Origin: Deltaproteobacteria bacterium | Lineage (GTDB): Bacteria > Desulfobacterota > Dissulfuribacteria > Dissulfuribacterales > UBA3076 | Length of the DNA: 53,468 nucleotides | Direction of reading: 5' to 3' | Assembly: GCA_003194485.1 (NCBI GenBank) | Contig: PQXD01000018.1 | Span: 1-53,468 of the forward strand | In this document: piece by piece, positions 27,666-46,196 of the stretch | Numbering within the stretch: the first letter of the stretch is position 1 | Layout of the letters: the number at the start of each line of letters is the position of its first letter | Program-made: the position numbers and the translations under genes | Notes under the pieces: generated by a model | Database searches by the model: none | The model's input: only the letters and a program-made list of their open reading frames with translations | Told to the model about the DNA's origin: nothing

Positions 27666-28059
27666 TAAATATTCTTATGAACCCGTTATATCCTGCCTTG
27701 AAGCGGTTGCCTTTTTCCGGGTTTCAAAGCTCACTCATCGCAGACCGGAGAGGCAGTGCAATCCGGCCCGCGATCGAAACCCTGCAAAAGGCAAACCGCT
27801 CCTGCGGCAGGGCACGGATGGCAACCGTTCACTGGAAGGGGATATTTCTTTGAACAGTTTAACGGAAGCCCCCGTAGTTTTCTCGGCTTTTGCTGTGGGG
27901 GAAACCCCGGCTCCTGAGCGCAGCGAAGGAGAACGGGGAGGGGCAGGGCATCCCCCATGTCAAAAGCCTTAGAAAACAAGGGGCTGAAGTGTTAAGTGAA
28001 AAGAAATATCCCCTTCCAGTGAACGGTTACGTGAGACCACGGGTTCACCGGATATTTAC
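27666..28059. repeat. Composite dispersed repeat, copy 2
   Basis: This occupies most of the 849-bp gap between the sigma-54 activator and the next gene; the rest (27253-27665) shows no supported gene. The left end is TAAATATTCTTATGAACCCG (27666); the right is CGGGTTCACCGGATATTTAC, ending 28059. After the left end, TTATATCCTGCCTTGAAGCG matches copy 1 (TTATATCCTGCCTTGGAGCG). One hairpin module (about 27714-27824) and one long palindrome (27823-28028) lie inside. Confidence 0.85.
27823..28028. repeat. Long palindromic element, copy 2 (type B)
   Basis: A perfect 28-bp outer arm at 27823-27850 (AACCGTTCACTGGAAGGGGA onward) pairs with 28001-28028. Inner stems include GGCTTTTG..GTGGGGGA with TCCCCCATGTCAAAAGCC. 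The apex keeps CCCCGGCTCC, GAGCGCAGCGAA and GGAGAACGGGG as in copy 1. The outer stem is unrelated in sequence to copy 1, yet the geometry is the same. Confidence 0.9.
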
Positions 28060-35111: not shown

Positions 35112-35188
35112 GGCGGTGTAGCTCAGCAGGTTAGAGCATGCGGCTCATATCCGCAGGGTCCGGGGTTCAAATCCCTGCACCGCCACCA
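35112..35188 (+). tRNA. tRNA-Met (CAT), elongator
   Basis: This 77-nt cloverleaf has acceptor GGCGGTG..CACCGCC, anticodon stem TGCGG-CTCATAT-CCGCA with anticodon CAT, T-loop GTTCAAATC and encoded CCA. The paired 1-72 position rules out initiator. A tRNA-Ile with modified CAT cannot be fully excluded by sequence. It is next to queA but not a QueA substrate. Confidence 0.9.
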
Positions 35189-35250
35189 ACTTCTATCGGT
35201 CGTATCCTGATTCACCATATTACCCTGATTAAGTCGGAGTTGCTATACAT

Positions 35251-35448
35251 ATGAAGCTTTTTCTGAGTGTAATAGGCTTACTAATGGTTGTTGAAGGACT
35301 CCCTTATTTCGCCTTTCCTGAAAAGATGCAGGTCCTTACGAGACAAATCGAGGAAATGGATCCGGATCAATTGAGATTGGTTGGTCTTGTTTCCACCTTG
35401 ATCGGCCTGGCAGTATGTTATCTTGCCCAAAGGACCGATATTTTTTAA
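35251..35448 (+). CDS. Small inner-membrane protein, YjeT/DUF2065 family
   Basis: The 65 residues form two hydrophobic helices (LFLSVIGLLMVVEGLPYFAF and LVGLVSTLIGLAVCYLA) joined by a short amphipathic stretch ending MDPDQLR. This is the DUF2065 (YjeT-like) pattern. Function is unknown; in many proteobacteria the family lies near hflKC. The stop codon overlaps the start of queA (TAATG), so the two are coupled. Confidence 0.85.
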   Translation: MKLFLSVIGLLMVVEGLPYFAFPEKMQVLTRQIEEMDPDQLRLVGLVSTLIGLAVCYLAQRTDIF

Positions 35449-36500
35449 TGACAGCAGACTTTAATCTGGTTGAATATGATTACAACTTGCCTCCTTGCCT
35501 GATCGCTCAGTATCCTTTGCCTGATCGGTCGTCTTCCCGCTTGATGGTACTCGACCGTAAAACGGGCGAACTAAGCCATCGGATCTTTCGTGACCTGTTA
35601 GATTACATTAATCCGGAGGACTGCCTTGTTCTCAACGACAGCAAGGTATTTCCAGCTCGACTTAAATGCATGAAATCAACAGGAGGGAGGGTAGAATTTT
35701 TTCTACTCCACTTTCCCAGAGAAAATGGGAATGGCGTGGCATTTGCTAAGGCCCTTTATCGCAGTTCGAAACCGGTAAGACAGGGCCAAAAGATACGATG
35801 CCGGGGGGGTCTGGAGATAGAAGTCCTTGAAGTCAATTCCGCGGGCCAGGTTGATATTAAGCTCATGTATCCGGGTGAATTATTATTAACCCTGAAATCC
35901 TGCGGAGATATTCCTCTTCCGCCATATATCAAACGTTCTCCGGTTGCTTCCGATGCAGAACAATATCAGACCATTTATGCCAGAGAGATAGGTTCGGTGG
36001 CCGCCCCTACGGCAGGACTCCATTTCACTGAAGAGCAATTACTCCTCGCCAGGGAAAAAAATATTAACATGGCATGGATAACACTCCACGTTGGTTACGG
36101 CACCTTTGCTCCGGTAAGGACATCTGACATACGTAAGCACATGATTCACCCTGAATGGATCTCGGTACCTGAAAGTACTGCGGAAAAGATAATTTCCACC
36201 CGCAAGACAGGTGGCCGGGTTATAGCAGTAGGAACAACTGTAGTCAGGGCATTAGAGGCAACAGTAAATGGTACGGATAGAATAAAGGCCTTTCAGGGAT
36301 TATGTGACCTGTATATTCTGCCCGGTCGTCGATTCCGAGTCGTTGACTGCCTGGTTACCAACTTCCACCTGCCCAGATCTTCTTTGTTAATATTAGTTTC
36401 TGCCTTTGCGGGCAGGGGCAGGATACTTCATGCCTATAAAAAGGCCGTGGATGCCGGATATAGATTTTTCAGTTACGGAGACGCAATGCTTATCATATAG
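35448..36500 (+). CDS. queA: S-adenosylmethionine:tRNA ribosyltransferase-isomerase
   Basis: The 350-residue enzyme adds the cyclopentene-type ring to preQ1-tRNA on the way to queuosine. Family blocks are YDYNLPPCLIAQYPLPDRSSSR, split across DRKTGELSHRIFRDL, VLNDSKVFPARL, PLPPYIKR, YQTIYAREIGSVAAPTAGLHF (start of block) and the C-terminal VTNFHLPRSSLLILVSAFAG. ATG 35448 is chosen because it overlaps the upstream stop (TAATG) and gives the usual N-terminus; a frame from 35415 adds 11 non-conserved residues. No tgt gene is in the window. Confidence 0.95.
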   Translation: MTADFNLVEYDYNLPPCLIAQYPLPDRSSSRLMVLDRKTGELSHRIFRDLLDYINPEDCLVLNDSKVFPARLKCMKSTGGRVEFFLLHFPRENGNGVAFAKALYRSSKPVRQGQKIRCRGGLEIEVLEVNSAGQVDIKLMYPGELLLTLKSCGDIPLPPYIKRSPVASDAEQYQTIYAREIGSVAAPTAGLHFTEEQLLLAREKNINMAWITLHVGYGTFAPVRTSDIRKHMIHPEWISVPESTAEKIISTRKTGGRVIAVGTTVVRALEATVNGTDRIKAFQGLCDLYILPGRRFRVVDCLVTNFHLPRSSLLILVSAFAGRGRILHAYKKAVDAGYRFFSYGDAMLII

Positions 36501-36555
36501 GCGAGGGAAAGAGCGTCTTTGATTGATCGTACGCGGCTGCAGCAGTTCCAATGTG

Positions 36556-36591
36556 TTGACAATCTAATCTCAAGTGGTTATGAATTAGATT
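36556..36591 (+). promoter_or_regulatory. tRNA-fMet promoter with an overlapping inverted repeat
   Basis: TTGACA (36556-36561), a 17-bp spacer and TATGAA (36579-36584) form a near-consensus sigma-70 promoter. AATCTAAT (36561-36568) pairs with ATTAGATT (36584-36591) across it, followed by a T-rich run (GCTTTTCGGTTTTTTTT). The dyad may be an operator or a weak terminator of queA. Confidence 0.65.
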
Positions 36592-36627
36592 GCTTTTCGG
36601 TTTTTTTTGAAACAAAATTCCTTCGGA

Positions 36628-36704
<77 letters not shown>

Positions 36705-40191: not shown

Positions 40192-40229
40192 AGGGCCGTG
40201 GATAATTGATTCCACGGCCCTATTTTTTT
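40192..40229 (+). terminator. Rho-independent terminator after atpE
   Basis: AGGGCCGTGGA (40192-40202) pairs perfectly with TCCACGGCCCT (40211-40221) around an 8-nt loop, followed by ATTTTTTT. It ends the hemL/atp direction; the uvrA-like stop codon on the other strand lies inside the stem. Confidence 0.92.
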
Positions 40230-42683
40230 GCCGTGTCTGGCGGGCCTTCGGCCACTATGGCCCCTCCTTCCGGTCCCCCCTTCGGTCCCAGTTCTATTAT
40301 CCAGTCCGCCAGGTCCAGGATCTCAGGCTGGTTCTCGATAAGTATTACAGAATGGCCCTGCTCAAGAAGTTCGTCCAGAACCAGGATAAATCTTTCCATG
40401 TCCCTTGGATGAAGACCGCGGGATGGCTCATCCATGATGTAGATCGTGGAGTCACGGGTCTGTTTCGCAAGCTCCCTGGCAAGCTTGAGTCGCTGGGCCT
40501 CTCCGCCTGAGAGTGTGCAGGCAGGTTGTCCGAGCTTCAGATATCCAAGCCCGATCCTTTCAATTACTTCCAGAGGGCGCCTTATCCCGGGTATCCTGGC
40601 AAAGAAACCGGCTGCATCCTTTACTGTCATATCCAGGACTTCTGCCATATTCAGCCCCTTATACCTTATTCCCAAGGCCTCCCTGTTGTAGCGCATTCCC
40701 CCGCAGAGGTCACAGGTTATCTTAATTGGAGGGAGATATTGCAGGTCCAGATCAATAGAGCCCTGGCCCCTGCACCTTTCACACCTGCCGCCCTTGCGGG
40801 TGAGGCTGAAATAGCCGGCCTTGTAGCCCCTGCTTCTGGCCTCAGGGGTCCTGGAGAAAACGGCCCTGATGCGGGTAAAAATACCCATGTATGTTGCAGG
40901 CATTGAGGACCGGGCCTTTACAAGGGGTGCCTGGTCTACAAGGATTACCTCAGGCATGGCGGATAATCCCCCCTTCAGGACCAGTTTTGTCTTTGAAGAT
41001 CTCTCTGTAGGCCTACAGCGAAGCGCATGATATAATTCATCAGTCACCAGAGTGCTCTTCCCGGAGCCCGAAACACCTGCTACACAGACCAGGCAGCCAA
41101 GAGGGAATGCCACCGTAATGTCTTTCAGGTTGTTTTTCTTTACATGGCGCAGGATTATTTGTCCATGGGATCTTCTCTTATGGCCATGCCTTTTGAGGCG
41201 TCTGCTTCCCTGAAGATGCGGTCCTGTGATGCTGTCCCGGTCTTTTGCCATATCCTCGGCCGTGCCGGAGAATATCAGATACCCTCCTTCATCTGCTGCT
41301 CCGGGACCCAACTCAATTACGTGGTCTGCCTTTCGAATGATGTCGAGGTCATGTTCCACGACTATTATTGTGTTGCCCTGATCCCTTAAATGGACGAGGT
41401 TCTGCCACAGCGCTTCCTGTTCGCGCGGATGCAGGCCTATTGTAGGCTCATCCAGTATATATAATATCCCGGTCAAGTCCCGGCCAAGCTGGGCACCCAG
41501 GCGCAGCCTCTGGATCTCTCCGCCTGACAGGGTCATAGCCGCCCGATCGAGCCTGAGATAACCAAGACCCATTTCCTCCAGGGGTTTGAGCCGCGATGAA
41601 ATGCCCTCGATAATGCGGATTCCGGCCTGAATGTTTCTAATTCCATGAAATTTTACTGAAAATTTATCAGGAAAGGAAAGCAGCCACAGGTAAGTTTTGT
41701 GTACAGACCATGTCATGAGACCGGGAAAGGTCTGGTCACCTATGCGGACACTTCGGGCAAACGGGTTCAGCCCGGTTCCTGCGCACTCCGGATAGGTTTG
41801 CCCTGATTTATTTTTGCCCTTGCCTTCGCAGGAGATACACATTCCGTCCGGGTGGCTGCAGGAAAATATCCGGGGGCTGAGAGCGGGAAAAGACGCCCGG
41901 CACTCAGGACAGACCATCTTTTCGCTAAATGTAAGCATCTCAGGCCATTTGCCCTTTTTTACGGGAAAAATCTCTATCACCACGGAACCGTTTCCCTGAC
42001 TCAAGGCCAGGGCAAGGGAATCTGCAAGGCGCGAAAGGATCCCCGGCTTCACTATCAGACGGTCCACTATCAGTTCCAGGGACTCGGGTTTATCCTCCAA
42101 TGTTACCGGGGCATCCAGGTTAAATGTTCTGCCGTCTATTCTCACCCTGAGAAAGCCGTCTTTTTTCAAGTGGTTCAGTATTTCGTCCAGGGGCATCAGG
42201 TCCATTCTTCGAGTTATGGGTGCCATCAGGATCAATCTTGTTCCCTCCGGGAGATCCAGAATCCTGTCGGCCATCTGATCCACACTGAGAGCGCTGATCT
42301 CTGTTTGGCACTCTGGACAGTGCGGCCGGCCACATGTGGCGAAAAACAGGCGCATGAAATCCGCTGTGCCAGTGAGAGTAGCCACACTGGACCTGGGGCT
42401 GCGCACAAAGGGCTTCTGCTCGAGTGCAATGGGGGGGAGGAAGGCCTTTTATTGAATCCACCAAAGGCCTGTCCCACAGGTCGACAATACGTTTTACCGC
42501 CATGCCCAGAGATTCGAGGTAGCGGTATTGACCCTCGGCAAAGAGTACATCCAGGGCCAGGCTGGATTTGCCTGAGCCTGACGGACCGGTCAGGACCGTG
42601 ATTTTCCCCAGCGGTATCGAAAGGTCAAAGCCTTTCAGATTATGTTGACGGACATTGACAATGTCTATAGTTTGATTTGTCAT
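40220..42683 (-). pseudogene. uvrA: UvrA-like excinuclease ABC subunit A, one frameshift
   Basis: ATG 42683 opens a UvrA N-terminus with Walker A VLTGPSGSGKSSLALDVLFAEG, but the frame fails after GLPPP. One extra C in the seven-C run (plus-strand G run 42431-42437) explains it: with six C the sequence reads GLPPPIALEQKPFVRSPRSS and goes on to 40220. The rest (about 735 residues) has a UvrB-binding region, Zn-type pairs (CPEC, CISCEGKG; CERCRGQG, CDLCGG), LSGGEIQRLRLGAQLG, a second Walker A AGVSGSGKSTLV, LSGGEAQRLKLA and Walker Bs. The restored length of about 820 is shorter than E. coli UvrA (940). The loss is in the first insertion domain before the LSGGE signature, so it may be a UvrA paralogue. 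Error in the homopolymer is possible. Confidence 0.8.
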
Positions 42684-42747: not shown

Positions 42748-42845
42748 GGAAGCGGAAAGGGCACTGGTGGCCCTCCCGGACTTCAAATCCGGTGCACCGG
42801 GTGAAGAGCTCGGTGGGTGGGTTCGATTCCCATGCGCTTCCGCCA
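42748..42845 (+). tRNA. selC: tRNA-Sec (TCA), selenocysteine tRNA
   Basis: This is a 98-nt tRNA with the features of selC: a long acceptor/T axis (GGAAGCG..CGCTTCC), an extended D-stem, anticodon loop CTTCAAA with anticodon TCA, a long variable arm (GTGCACCGGGTGAAGAGCTC region) and T-loop GTTCGATTCC. Discriminator G and encoded CCA follow. It shows that the cell inserts Sec at UGA, which supports the candidate selenoprotein at 46.0 kb. selA, selB and selD are not in the window. Confidence 0.96.
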
Positions 42846-42904: not shown

Positions 42905-44650
42905 TCACCTGGCTCCGACTATTTTGAGATAGTTTCTGAATTGTCTCTTGCTGAAATCCGAGAACCTGTCTAATATCGCCATGAACTCCAAGCCAGGCAC
43001 AAACGCCCTTACCACAGGGACATCCAGGTCCTTTTTTGTCAAGTCCACATAGATCGGTTTAAGACCGTTTGATAGCAGCAGTCTCTCCACGGTATTCAGG
43101 TCGCGGCTCACATCCCCTGATGAATAATCGGGAAGCTCCTCGTATTTTATGCTCTTTTGTCCTGCCGGAGGCGGATTTGATCTGACAAAATACGGATATG
43201 CCAGCTCGGTCAGTGCAGATACCGCCGCCGCCTTTCCGCTCAGGTCTGCTGCACAACCCTTTACAATTTCATCCCCCGTCTGCACAAAGGCCTTGTAGCA
43301 AGGTATCCCAAGATCAGGGGTCAAATCCAGAAACTGGACATAACGGCCTCTTTCCCTGCATTTGTCCAGGAGACAGGCTATTGCAGGATCTTCTGCTTCC
43401 AGCGTGAAACACCTCTCTTGAGAGTACAGCGCAACTCTTTCAGCGTCTCTTTCTATGTATTCCATCAAGGCGTGCAGCCTGGCCTCATCTTCCGTATTGC
43501 CGGAAGCAAGGCCGTTTGATGACACCCCGCTGGTCAGAGCCGCTTCATCGAGGTTGCAGAACAGAAAGACAAACTGGGCGGGCAGATATATCTCGGCGCC
43601 CCCGTCTGCGCTGATTTCCCGGCCTGCTATCCAGTACAATACCTGGTCCTCATAAGGAACTTCAAGATTCATGATATTCGGATCAAGTGCAGAAAGCCCT
43701 TGTGCCACCAAATCAGTGTAACTGGACCTGACGAGATTAAACTCATCCTTGTATCCGATAGTCAAGTCATTGGAAAAACTTGCAAAAGATGAATATCTTT
43801 CAACCATCTCCATCAAATACGAGGCCCGTGCCTGGTCTTCTTCCATGCCTTTTCCATAGCTTGTCTGAGGAATGGCGAGTCTCCATCTGTTCCTTCCCAC
43901 AGCAACCCGAACCTCTGTATTCCATGATCTTTCCAGCGCATACGGGCTGAGAGACCATACTGTCCTCCGTTCAGTTCCGGTAATCAGGTCAATATCGGCG
44001 AGTCTTCTCACGATATCTTTAACAGTCTCTGAAGCTGTTTTCCGCCTTGCCGAAGTTCCAGGCATGACGGATTTTGTTTTTGATTCGGAAAAGATGTCCT
44101 TTATATGTACTATGTCTTTTCCATCCGGATCGATATCATCAAGATCAAATGGTATGGGAAACTCGATCTCGCTCAGGGAAGGAAGCGGTTCGTGATTATA
44201 GACGTTCTTTTCAAACACGCCCGTCCAGAACAGATGTCCGGGAGAGTCCTTGTCCAAGGCCCATCTTGCAAAAATCAAGGGGGTGTGCCCGGCAAGCTTC
44301 CCCGCCCCCATTTTTTCAAGTCTGCTGCGCACATCAGGAAATCCGCGTAATACGCTTACCTCGTAAGCAGCTGCCAGAAATCGAAGGTCTTCCTTTTTTT
44401 GCTCAATCAAGCCCTCAAGTTTGTTTTTGTCGTATTCTGCCAGGGTAAACAACAGGTAATTATGCATGAATTGGTCGTTCGGATGTGATTTCAGGTAATC
44501 CAATACCTGCTGAATACTCATCTCCTTTGAGGGCACACAGGCAAAAGAGCCGACACCGGCCACATTACGGACGAATTTCATTTCGTATATCTGGAATTCA
44601 GAAAGATCTTCCATTATATTCTCAGAAAAGTCGGTGCCCATGTTGCCCAC
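42905..44650 (-). CDS. YcaO-domain protein with helical N-terminal extension
   Basis: The 581-residue protein has an N-terminal helical region (about 50-140; PNDQFMHNYLLFTLAEYDKN), a linker, and a YcaO domain from about 200. YcaO motifs include RASYLMEMVERYSSFA, SSNGLASGNTEDEARLHALM followed by EYIERDAE (ATP/Mg acidic residues), LTELAYPYF and a C-terminal VPVVRAFVPGLEF. YcaO enzymes activate backbone amides with ATP (azolines, thioamides) or help RimO methylthiolate ribosomal protein S12. No precursor peptide, TfuA or dehydrogenase gene is next to it. It is convergent with selC, 59 bp apart; whether that matters is unknown. Confidence 0.85.
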   Translation of the reverse strand: MGNMGTDFSENIMEDLSEFQIYEMKFVRNVAGVGSFACVPSKEMSIQQVLDYLKSHPNDQFMHNYLLFTLAEYDKNKLEGLIEQKKEDLRFLAAAYEVSVLRGFPDVRSRLEKMGAGKLAGHTPLIFARWALDKDSPGHLFWTGVFEKNVYNHEPLPSLSEIEFPIPFDLDDIDPDGKDIVHIKDIFSESKTKSVMPGTSARRKTASETVKDIVRRLADIDLITGTERRTVWSLSPYALERSWNTEVRVAVGRNRWRLAIPQTSYGKGMEEDQARASYLMEMVERYSSFASFSNDLTIGYKDEFNLVRSSYTDLVAQGLSALDPNIMNLEVPYEDQVLYWIAGREISADGGAEIYLPAQFVFLFCNLDEAALTSGVSSNGLASGNTEDEARLHALMEYIERDAERVALYSQERCFTLEAEDPAIACLLDKCRERGRYVQFLDLTPDLGIPCYKAFVQTGDEIVKGCAADLSGKAAAVSALTELAYPYFVRSNPPPAGQKSIKYEELPDYSSGDVSRDLNTVERLLLSNGLKPIYVDLTKKDLDVPVVRAFVPGLEFMAILDRFSDFSKRQFRNYLKIVGAR

Positions 44651-45622: not shown

Positions 45623-45903
45623 CCCAAAAGGCAAACCGCTCCTGCGGCAGGGCACGGATGGCAATCGTTCACTGGCAGGGGATATTTCTTTGAACAGTTT
45701 AACGGAAGCCCCCGTAGTTTTCTTGGCTTTTGCTGTGGGGGAAACCCCGGCTCCTGAGCGCAGCGAAGGAGAACGGGGAGGGGGCAAGACTCCCCCATGT
45801 CAAAAGCCTTAAGAAAACAAGGGGCTGAAGTGTTAAGTGAAAAGAAATATCCCCTGCCAGTGAACGGTTTGCGCAGTGGACCACGGGTTCACCGAATATT
45901 TAC
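45623..45903. repeat. Composite dispersed repeat, copy 4 (5'-truncated; palindrome type B)
   Basis: It starts abruptly with the last part of the hairpin module (CCCCAAAAGGCAAACCGCTC). The long palindrome follows: the arm at 45666-45690 pairs perfectly with 45842-45866. It ends with the boundary CGGGTTCACCGAATATTTAC (to 45903). It differs from copy 2 in the outer stem by a paired change (GGAAGG/CCTTCC to GGCAGG/CCTGCC). It lies between vapBC and the candidate selenoprotein gene; 45904-46022 shows no gene. Confidence 0.88.
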
Positions 45904-46022: not shown

Positions 46023-46196
46023 ATGAAAGAAATTCTGATTGTCATTGCTTTTGTAGGTGTATGGTATCTGTTGCAGGTCTACATCCTGCCCAAACTTGGA
46101 ATCTCCACCTGAATGCGCAACTCCTGTCAGTTGACAGGAAAAAAGGACAAAGGCGCGCAAACTGAAAACGAAACGAAGAAGGATGAAGATTATTGA
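46023..46196 (+). CDS. Candidate small membrane selenoprotein (in-frame UGA = Sec30)
   Basis: ATG 46023 opens MKEILIVIAFVGVWYLLQVY, a single transmembrane helix, then ILPKLGIST. Codon 30 is TGA (46110-46112). If read as Sec the frame continues MRNSCQLTGKKDKGAQTENE and TKKDEDY to TGA at 46194, giving 57 residues with a U-x4-C motif (Sec30, Cys35) and a charged tail. The 7-bp hairpin at 46122-46139 begins nine bases after the UGA, with apical loop AGTT, as in bacterial SECIS elements. selC is 3.2 kb away. A weak Shine-Dalgarno (GATGAG) precedes the ATG. The motif next to a membrane anchor suggests a thiol/selenol redox role. The alternative is a 29-residue peptide ending at the UGA. I know of no assigned function. 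Confidence 0.7.
46122..46139 (+). promoter_or_regulatory. SECIS-like hairpin of the candidate selenoprotein
   Basis: TCCTGTC (46122-46128) and GACAGGA (46133-46139) form a perfect 7-bp stem with loop AGTT. There are 16 nt from the UGA to the loop, and a G is at the second loop position. This fits the general bacterial SECIS form bound by SelB. Confidence 0.7.

Follow-up and report, generated by a model that had tools for sequence, protein, structure and literature searches.

The locus described here raises the question of how a single codon is read. A short reading frame at positions 46023 to 46196 is interrupted at codon 30 by UGA, which could end translation or could be decoded as selenocysteine (Sec). 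The frame lies in a stretch of 53,468 nucleotides from a Deltaproteobacteria bacterium, called the window below. The answer reached from comparative sequence analysis is that the locus is very probably a selenoprotein gene, and that it founds a family not described before. No experiment has been performed, and neither Sec insertion nor the protein itself has been observed.

The features on which the argument depends are the following; all are on the + strand of the window.

46023–46196, +: predicted selenoprotein gene of 57 residues with Sec at position 30, containing one in-frame UGA and ending in a terminal UGA (from translation and homologues)
46026–46094, +: single predicted transmembrane helix, residues 2–24 (AlphaFold2; hydrophobic in all homologues)
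46086–46109, +: LPKLGIST motif 3' of the helix, with P23 and G26 invariant and T29 nearly so (two alignments)
46110–46112, +: putatively recoded UGA, selenocysteine codon 30 (UGA in 231/231 loci)
46122–46139, +: predicted bacterial SECIS hairpin of 7 bp with loop AGTT, its apical loop starting 16 nt past the UGA (folding, covariation, synonymous rate)
46125–46127, +: Cys35 (TGT), candidate resolving thiol in U-x4-C (Cys at +5 in 124/195; pN 0.01 at the codon)
42748–42845, +: selC, the tRNA-Sec gene, found in the window; part of the decoding machinery and separate from the operon of the selenoprotein gene

Translation from the ATG at 46023 gives MKEILIVIAFVGVWYLLQVYILPKLGIST-U-MRNSCQLTGKKDKGAQTENETKKDEDY-stop. 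After the TGA at 46110–46112 there are 27 sense codons, followed by the final TGA at 46194–46196. The initial annotation, made from the letters of the window, had described this ATG, the in-frame TGA at codon 30 and the 27 further codons, and all are confirmed to the base. Its perfect 7-bp hairpin with an AGTT loop nine bases past the TGA is likewise exact: the spacer of 9 nt occupies 46113–46121, the stem 46122–46128 and 46133–46139, and the loop 46129–46132, with G at the second position. RNA folding of this hairpin gives -10.9 kcal/mol (z = -2.3). The selC gene that it placed inside the window is indeed there, 3.2 kb upstream of the selenoprotein gene; the source genome also has a gene for a full-length SelB, on a different contig.

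Homologues of the window gene are common. A search with the single sequence found them in 42 of 99 related genomes, with an in-frame TGA in each match listed. A scan of GTDB r220 contigs left 80 loci, nearly all labelled as Deltaproteobacteria or Desulfobacterota groups, and also gave one Eisenbacteria and one Thermodesulfovibrionia genome. Profile searches identified carriers in 168 of 395 Desulfobacterota, 74 of 296 Nitrospirota and 8 of 47 Eisenbacteria genomes; most of the genomes searched are metagenome-assembled. The aligned set comprises 231 loci with 195 distinct core sequences from the three phyla.

Throughout this set, the Sec column is TGA (231/231 loci, 195/195 distinct sequences), and neither a Cys codon nor any other sense codon occurs in it. 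Because the homologue search translated UGA as Cys, a true Cys homologue would have scored equally well. None was found in any genome of the three profile searches or among the kept GTDB r220 loci. The search for Cys forms was made in depth in these three phyla; elsewhere it used peptide patterns only. Six loci with no stop listed were considered as putative Cys variants, namely L159, L163 and L164 in Desulfobacterota and L222–L224 in Nitrospirota. These are weak matches and were rejected, since they stop before the Sec column and show UGA when extended. The Cys homologues that the initial annotation had predicted thus did not appear in the genomes searched, where every copy has Sec. It would have been refuted by the absence of any homologue with UGA or Cys at this position, or by homologues all ending at the UGA; the searches returned many homologues with UGA that read past it. 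The family appears to consist of obligately Sec-containing, single-pass membrane proteins of about 45–65 residues in Desulfobacterota, Nitrospirota and Eisenbacteria, as far as can be predicted from these alignments.

Two unusual forms occur among the members. The genome of L083 has a second copy, L172, which looks like a decayed paralogue: it has UAG inside the transmembrane helix and retains the LPRLGIST-UGA core. A two-Sec variant with two UGA codons is found in one genus of the window's order (L149, L154, L155 and L157). Its first Sec follows LPKLG without the accompanying Cys, and its second UGA lies in PTU-x4-C with a strong hairpin of its own.

Evidence for translation past the UGA is provided by the reading frame. 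At least 12 codons are open in frame beyond the UGA in 193 of 194 sequences, compared with 77 and 100 for the two alternative frames. Conservation of the following Cys has to be read separately in the two subfamilies, which differ in hairpin spacing (apical loop 16 nt versus 23 nt past the UGA). In the 16-nt subfamily the stem includes the Cys codon, which could therefore be conserved for the sake of the RNA. In the 23-nt subfamily the Cys lies outside the stem and is retained in 14 of 18 sequences, by both TGT and TGC, which indicates conservation at the protein level beyond the UGA. The tail past codon +10 is too variable for dN/dS to be informative about the frame (0.525 in frame versus 0.522 in frame +1).

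Several other ways of decoding the codon can be set aside. Reassignment of UGA to Trp or Gly is rejected because UGA also terminates many genes of the family and because SelB and selC are present. Pyrrolysine is irrelevant, as the codon is UGA and not UAG. Chance read-through is ruled out by the conservation of the UGA together with covariation in the hairpin.

The hairpin itself matches what is known of bacterial SECIS elements, in which the apical loop lies 16–37 nt past the UGA and a G stands within the first two loop bases (PMC13188914). The window hairpin, at 16 nt, is at the lower bound of this range. The 16-nt subfamily is Desulfobacterales-like and has loops of the [AG]G type; the 23-nt subfamily has loops GGA or GTC. 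In the latter, standard pairs fill 96.8% of pair cells and both sides have changed in 40 cells; the covariation score of 0.858 compares with 0.26 after shuffling and with no more than 0.21 in slid controls. The 16-nt subfamily has 90.6% pairing and a score of 0.293 against 0.179. The pairing percentages are biased upwards because the subfamily sequences were picked partly for pairing; the shuffle and slide controls for covariation between pairs are less affected by this bias. Of all 107 sequences, taken without regard to pairing, 104 have a SECIS-type hairpin, compared with 65 +/- 7 after synonymous codon resampling, and the mean energy is -10.0 compared with -6.8 +/- 0.2. The synonymous rate falls to 0.03–0.12 at codons +6 to +8, against 0.4–0.8 in the surrounding codons. 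Such a freeze, limited to the codons of the hairpin, is expected for an RNA structure overlying a coding sequence. A terminator hairpin is rejected, there being no run of T after the stem. The structure past the UGA is, by these comparative measures, a covarying bacterial SECIS.

A gene that needs Sec should occur with the machinery that inserts it. This comparison is uninformative in Desulfobacterota because nearly all genomes have selC (above the cut-off in 355/395). Nitrospirota, with selC above the cut-off in 146 of 296 genomes, allow it: selC is found in 63 of 74 carriers and in 83 of 222 non-carriers (Fisher p = 4e-13). Ten of the 11 Nitrospirota carriers without selC above the cut-off have SelB, as do 28 of the 29 carriers with a weak or no selC match when both phyla are counted. 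In one carrier, G669, neither selC nor SelB is above the cut-off; this is a single genome of unstated completeness, and assemblies may be incomplete.

The conserved UGA, the open frame beyond it and the covarying hairpin all support the reading proposed in the initial annotation. On these alignments, the conclusion holds that 46023–46196 is a real selenoprotein gene and not a chance read-through.

The family has a median length of 53 residues (5–95%: 44–66) and starts with M-x2-4, followed by a hydrophobic stretch of about 18 residues that includes W or F and Q or N and leads into [LF]-P-[KR]-[LFM]-G-[IV]-x-[TS]-U. P23, G26 and Sec30 are invariant in both family alignments, and dN/dS upstream of the UGA is 0.15, the helix and LPKLG-x-x-T being conserved as protein. 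The transmembrane helix proposed at the outset is borne out by the AlphaFold2 model of the window protein, which has one confident helix at residues 2–24 (pLDDT about 86–90 over residues 1–20) and a disordered tail. Neither the model nor the alignment contains a thioredoxin-like fold with UxxC, CxxU or TxxU; there is a helix and a disordered tail instead. Net charge in the family is about -0.3 on the N-terminal side of the helix and +2.5 after it, from which a probably cytoplasmic position of the Sec-bearing tail is inferred by the positive-inside rule.

The U-x4-C arrangement proposed for the protein is present in the window copy, through Cys35, and in 124 of 195 members; it is not universal. 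The first Cys after Sec stands at another spacing in 58 members, with positions from +6 to +25 among them, and no Cys precedes the stop in 13, so that a single U-x4-C mechanism cannot fit them all. In Nitrospirota and other branches the Cys is further on or absent, and Sec is always present. Sec is absolutely conserved and Cys is variable, a pattern suggesting that function resides in the selenol, with the Cys in an auxiliary role.

The genes found next to members of the family depend on the clade and thus do not imply one common pathway; they indicate co-location, not function. In Nitrospirota the gene lies directly downstream of rplQ in 38 of 45 distinct loci, at the end of a secY-map-rpsK-rpsD-rpoA-rplQ cluster. 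The gap is mostly 5–30 nt in the fully examined loci (for example L202–L213). These genes are what we take to be the ribosomal and SecY genes, named by sequence recognition without a family scan. A gene for an FmdB-type zinc-ribbon protein adjoins the family in 19 loci of Desulfobacterota and 2 of Eisenbacteria. In 19 Desulfobacterota loci the neighbour is an ECF sigma factor gene, with a zf-HC2-like gene after it; in Desulfobacterales, the sigma gene starts inside or just past the 3' end of the selenoprotein gene (about 19 loci). Other neighbours in Desulfobacterota, depending on the clade, are ferredoxin and cytochrome b, HD-domain, MobB, cytochrome c7, MerR-type regulator and glutamyl-tRNA synthetase-like genes. 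Redox genes (ferredoxin and cytochrome b, cytochrome c7, thioredoxin) thus adjoin part of the family. Genes presumed from sequence recognition to encode a Cu-ATPase, FeoB and a DtxR-like protein lie within a few kb in some Desulfobacterales. No match was found in a phage or plasmid collection that would indicate phage or plasmid cargo.

No gene lies close upstream of the window gene; the place is taken, about 150 bp away, by a palindromic, MITE-like repeat whose terminal inverted arms measure 29 nt. About 40 near-full copies at 89–100% identity are present in the genome, among 119 matches in total, and two of them lie in the window (45660–45880 and 27820–28028). Beside selC, on the - strand, lie a 728-aa UvrA-like reading frame (40220–42683), shorter than usual and overlapped by a 187-aa frame on the same strand, and a 581-aa YcaO-domain protein (42905–44650) for which specific NCBIfam models score below their cut-offs. 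The uvrA may be frameshifted or shortened. Elsewhere in the window, two tRNA-Met (CAT) genes flank a 361-aa reading frame (35415–36500) within 35112–36704.

On the sequence evidence, SelB and tRNA-Sec decode UGA-30 as selenocysteine, with the hairpin directly downstream serving as the SECIS. The rest of the mechanism is a proposal. The N-terminal helix would act as an anchor with the basic tail in the cytoplasm, and this anchoring would place the selenol just beyond the membrane surface. There the selenol may be a small redox nucleophile, acting on a peroxide, polysulfide, disulfide or other electrophile, or on a membrane redox partner. It would usually be resolved by the nearby Cys, and otherwise by a partner thiol such as that of thioredoxin. 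These steps beyond the decoding are inferred, and the redox role, which rests on chemistry without data, is a tentative assignment that we hold with somewhat less than even confidence.

If the UGA were an ordinary stop, the product would be a conserved membrane peptide of 29 residues, and the hairpin behind it would be untranslated. Peptides that small exist, the protein tail is weakly constrained, and many members, the window copy among them, also end in UGA. An ordinary stop would be expected to change to UAA or UAG over time, whereas all 231 loci have UGA, and such a stop accounts neither for the frame that stays open in 193 of 194 sequences nor for the Cys at +5 kept by both codons outside the stem. 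It would also leave aside a hairpin with SECIS spacing and loop G, and a family that tracks selC and SelB; this explanation is scarcely credible. A related idea is that of a selenium-sensing leader, in which Sec supply at UGA-30 sets the level of read-through, thereby controlling a downstream gene, and the peptide is secondary. The overlapping or abutting ECF sigma gene makes such coupling possible in the roughly 19 Desulfobacterales loci, but downstream genes in the family are variable and often missing or on the opposite strand. Likewise, the Nitrospirota gene stands just past rplQ with unrelated genes beyond, and the part before the UGA is conserved as protein (dN/dS 0.15 over the helix and LPKLG-x-x-T). 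A leader is thus very unlikely, and it and the true stop are the least likely of the rivals.

Two further explanations accept the selenoprotein and differ about its task. The protein could be accessory to a larger complex, in the membrane or linked to translation, as a CydX-like subunit or one associated with SecY and the ribosome, with Sec used for contact or metal binding over turnover. A single helix with conserved W/F and Q/N within the membrane would suit such a subunit, as would the position beside rplQ at the cluster end in 38 of 45 distinct Nitrospirota loci and beside cytochrome b and ferredoxin genes in some Desulfobacterota. No partner gene is common to the three phyla, however, FmdB coming closest with its 19 Desulfobacterota and 2 Eisenbacteria loci, and this role is judged unlikely while remaining a real possibility. 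Alternatively, a soft metal or a selenium species could be bound or delivered at the membrane. Sec and Cys close to the membrane, the FmdB-type zinc-ribbon neighbours and the Cu-ATPase, FeoB and DtxR-like genes of some Desulfobacterales are compatible with this, but the metal genes are confined to one clade and 13 of 195 members have no Cys to serve as second ligand. Such binding is considered improbable.

The redox selenoprotein, as favoured here, does not correspond to a known family. The initial annotation had called the gene unannotated and possibly new, and no Pfam or NCBIfam family covers it. Profiles of Pfam-A and NCBIfam gave nothing convincing (best stray E = 0.002–0.1, for one or two members), no relative was found among solved structures, and a text search of the literature for the motif letters returned no paper. 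Nor does a 2026 table of 119 prokaryotic selenoprotein families and subfamilies contain an entry for it (PMC13188914). The selenoproteins of the 2007 Olavius symbiont and of Haft 2025 were checked only through this table and NCBIfam, and the uncharacterised candidates of a 2026 groundwater study are outside the comparison. GOS_A, an undescribed hypothetical selenoprotein, was excluded as the identity of the family because it has 155 Cys homologues.

With other bacterial selenoproteins of the bSECIS type the family shares UGA-encoded Sec, the hairpin spacing and loop G, SelB and selC, and conservation across the UGA (PMC13188914). It differs in that none of those tabulated combines this motif with a length of about 50 residues and a single membrane pass, and in lacking a Cys homologue, a known domain or a thioredoxin-like fold. 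In eukaryotes, SELENOK and SELENOS are small single-pass membrane selenoproteins of ER quality control with Sec near the C terminus. They resemble the present family in having a disordered, charged tail that bears Sec and stays on one side of the membrane; they are eukaryotic, their Sec is near the C terminus, and no sequence relation is claimed. The FeoB-associated Cys-rich membrane proteins have the same plan of a single N-terminal helix and a short tail carrying reactive thiols, whereas the present family has no Pfam match, has Sec in place of Cys clusters and lies generally away from feoB. CydX and CioY, microproteins of oxidases, are also short single-helix membrane proteins that escape gene calling, but they have no selenocysteine and are conserved beside oxidase genes (PMC11955535 for CioY).

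Gene callers do not see the family, owing to the shortness of the gene and to the UGA that splits it in half. It has been stated in the deep-Sep paper of 2025 that all known selenoproteins now seem to have Cys homologues, and that the method may filter out families without them (PMC12013277). One of the deep-Sep test genomes, that of the cultured Desulfosarcina widdelii PP31, has a member of the present family (L044); Desulfonema magnum 4be13 is another carrier in culture. Prediction from Cys/Sec pairs cannot detect a family that has no Cys homologues, and the missing Cys relatives probably explain why gene finders overlooked it. In the genomes searched, the predicted family is a counter-example to that statement.

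A wider reading, speculative and less likely to be right than wrong, is that this is the first selenoprotein family in which Sec is apparently irreplaceable by Cys across three phyla. It would be a housekeeping membrane microprotein with selenol-only chemistry at the cytoplasmic face, helping to retain the Sec-decoding system in these lineages. The family is widespread, being present in more than 40% of the sampled Desulfobacterota genomes. If it is confirmed, the rule that all selenoproteins have Cys homologues falls, and a class of selenoproteins that current pipelines are designed to miss is revealed. Confirmation would also provide a minimal natural membrane selenopeptide for probing what selenium can do compared with sulfur.
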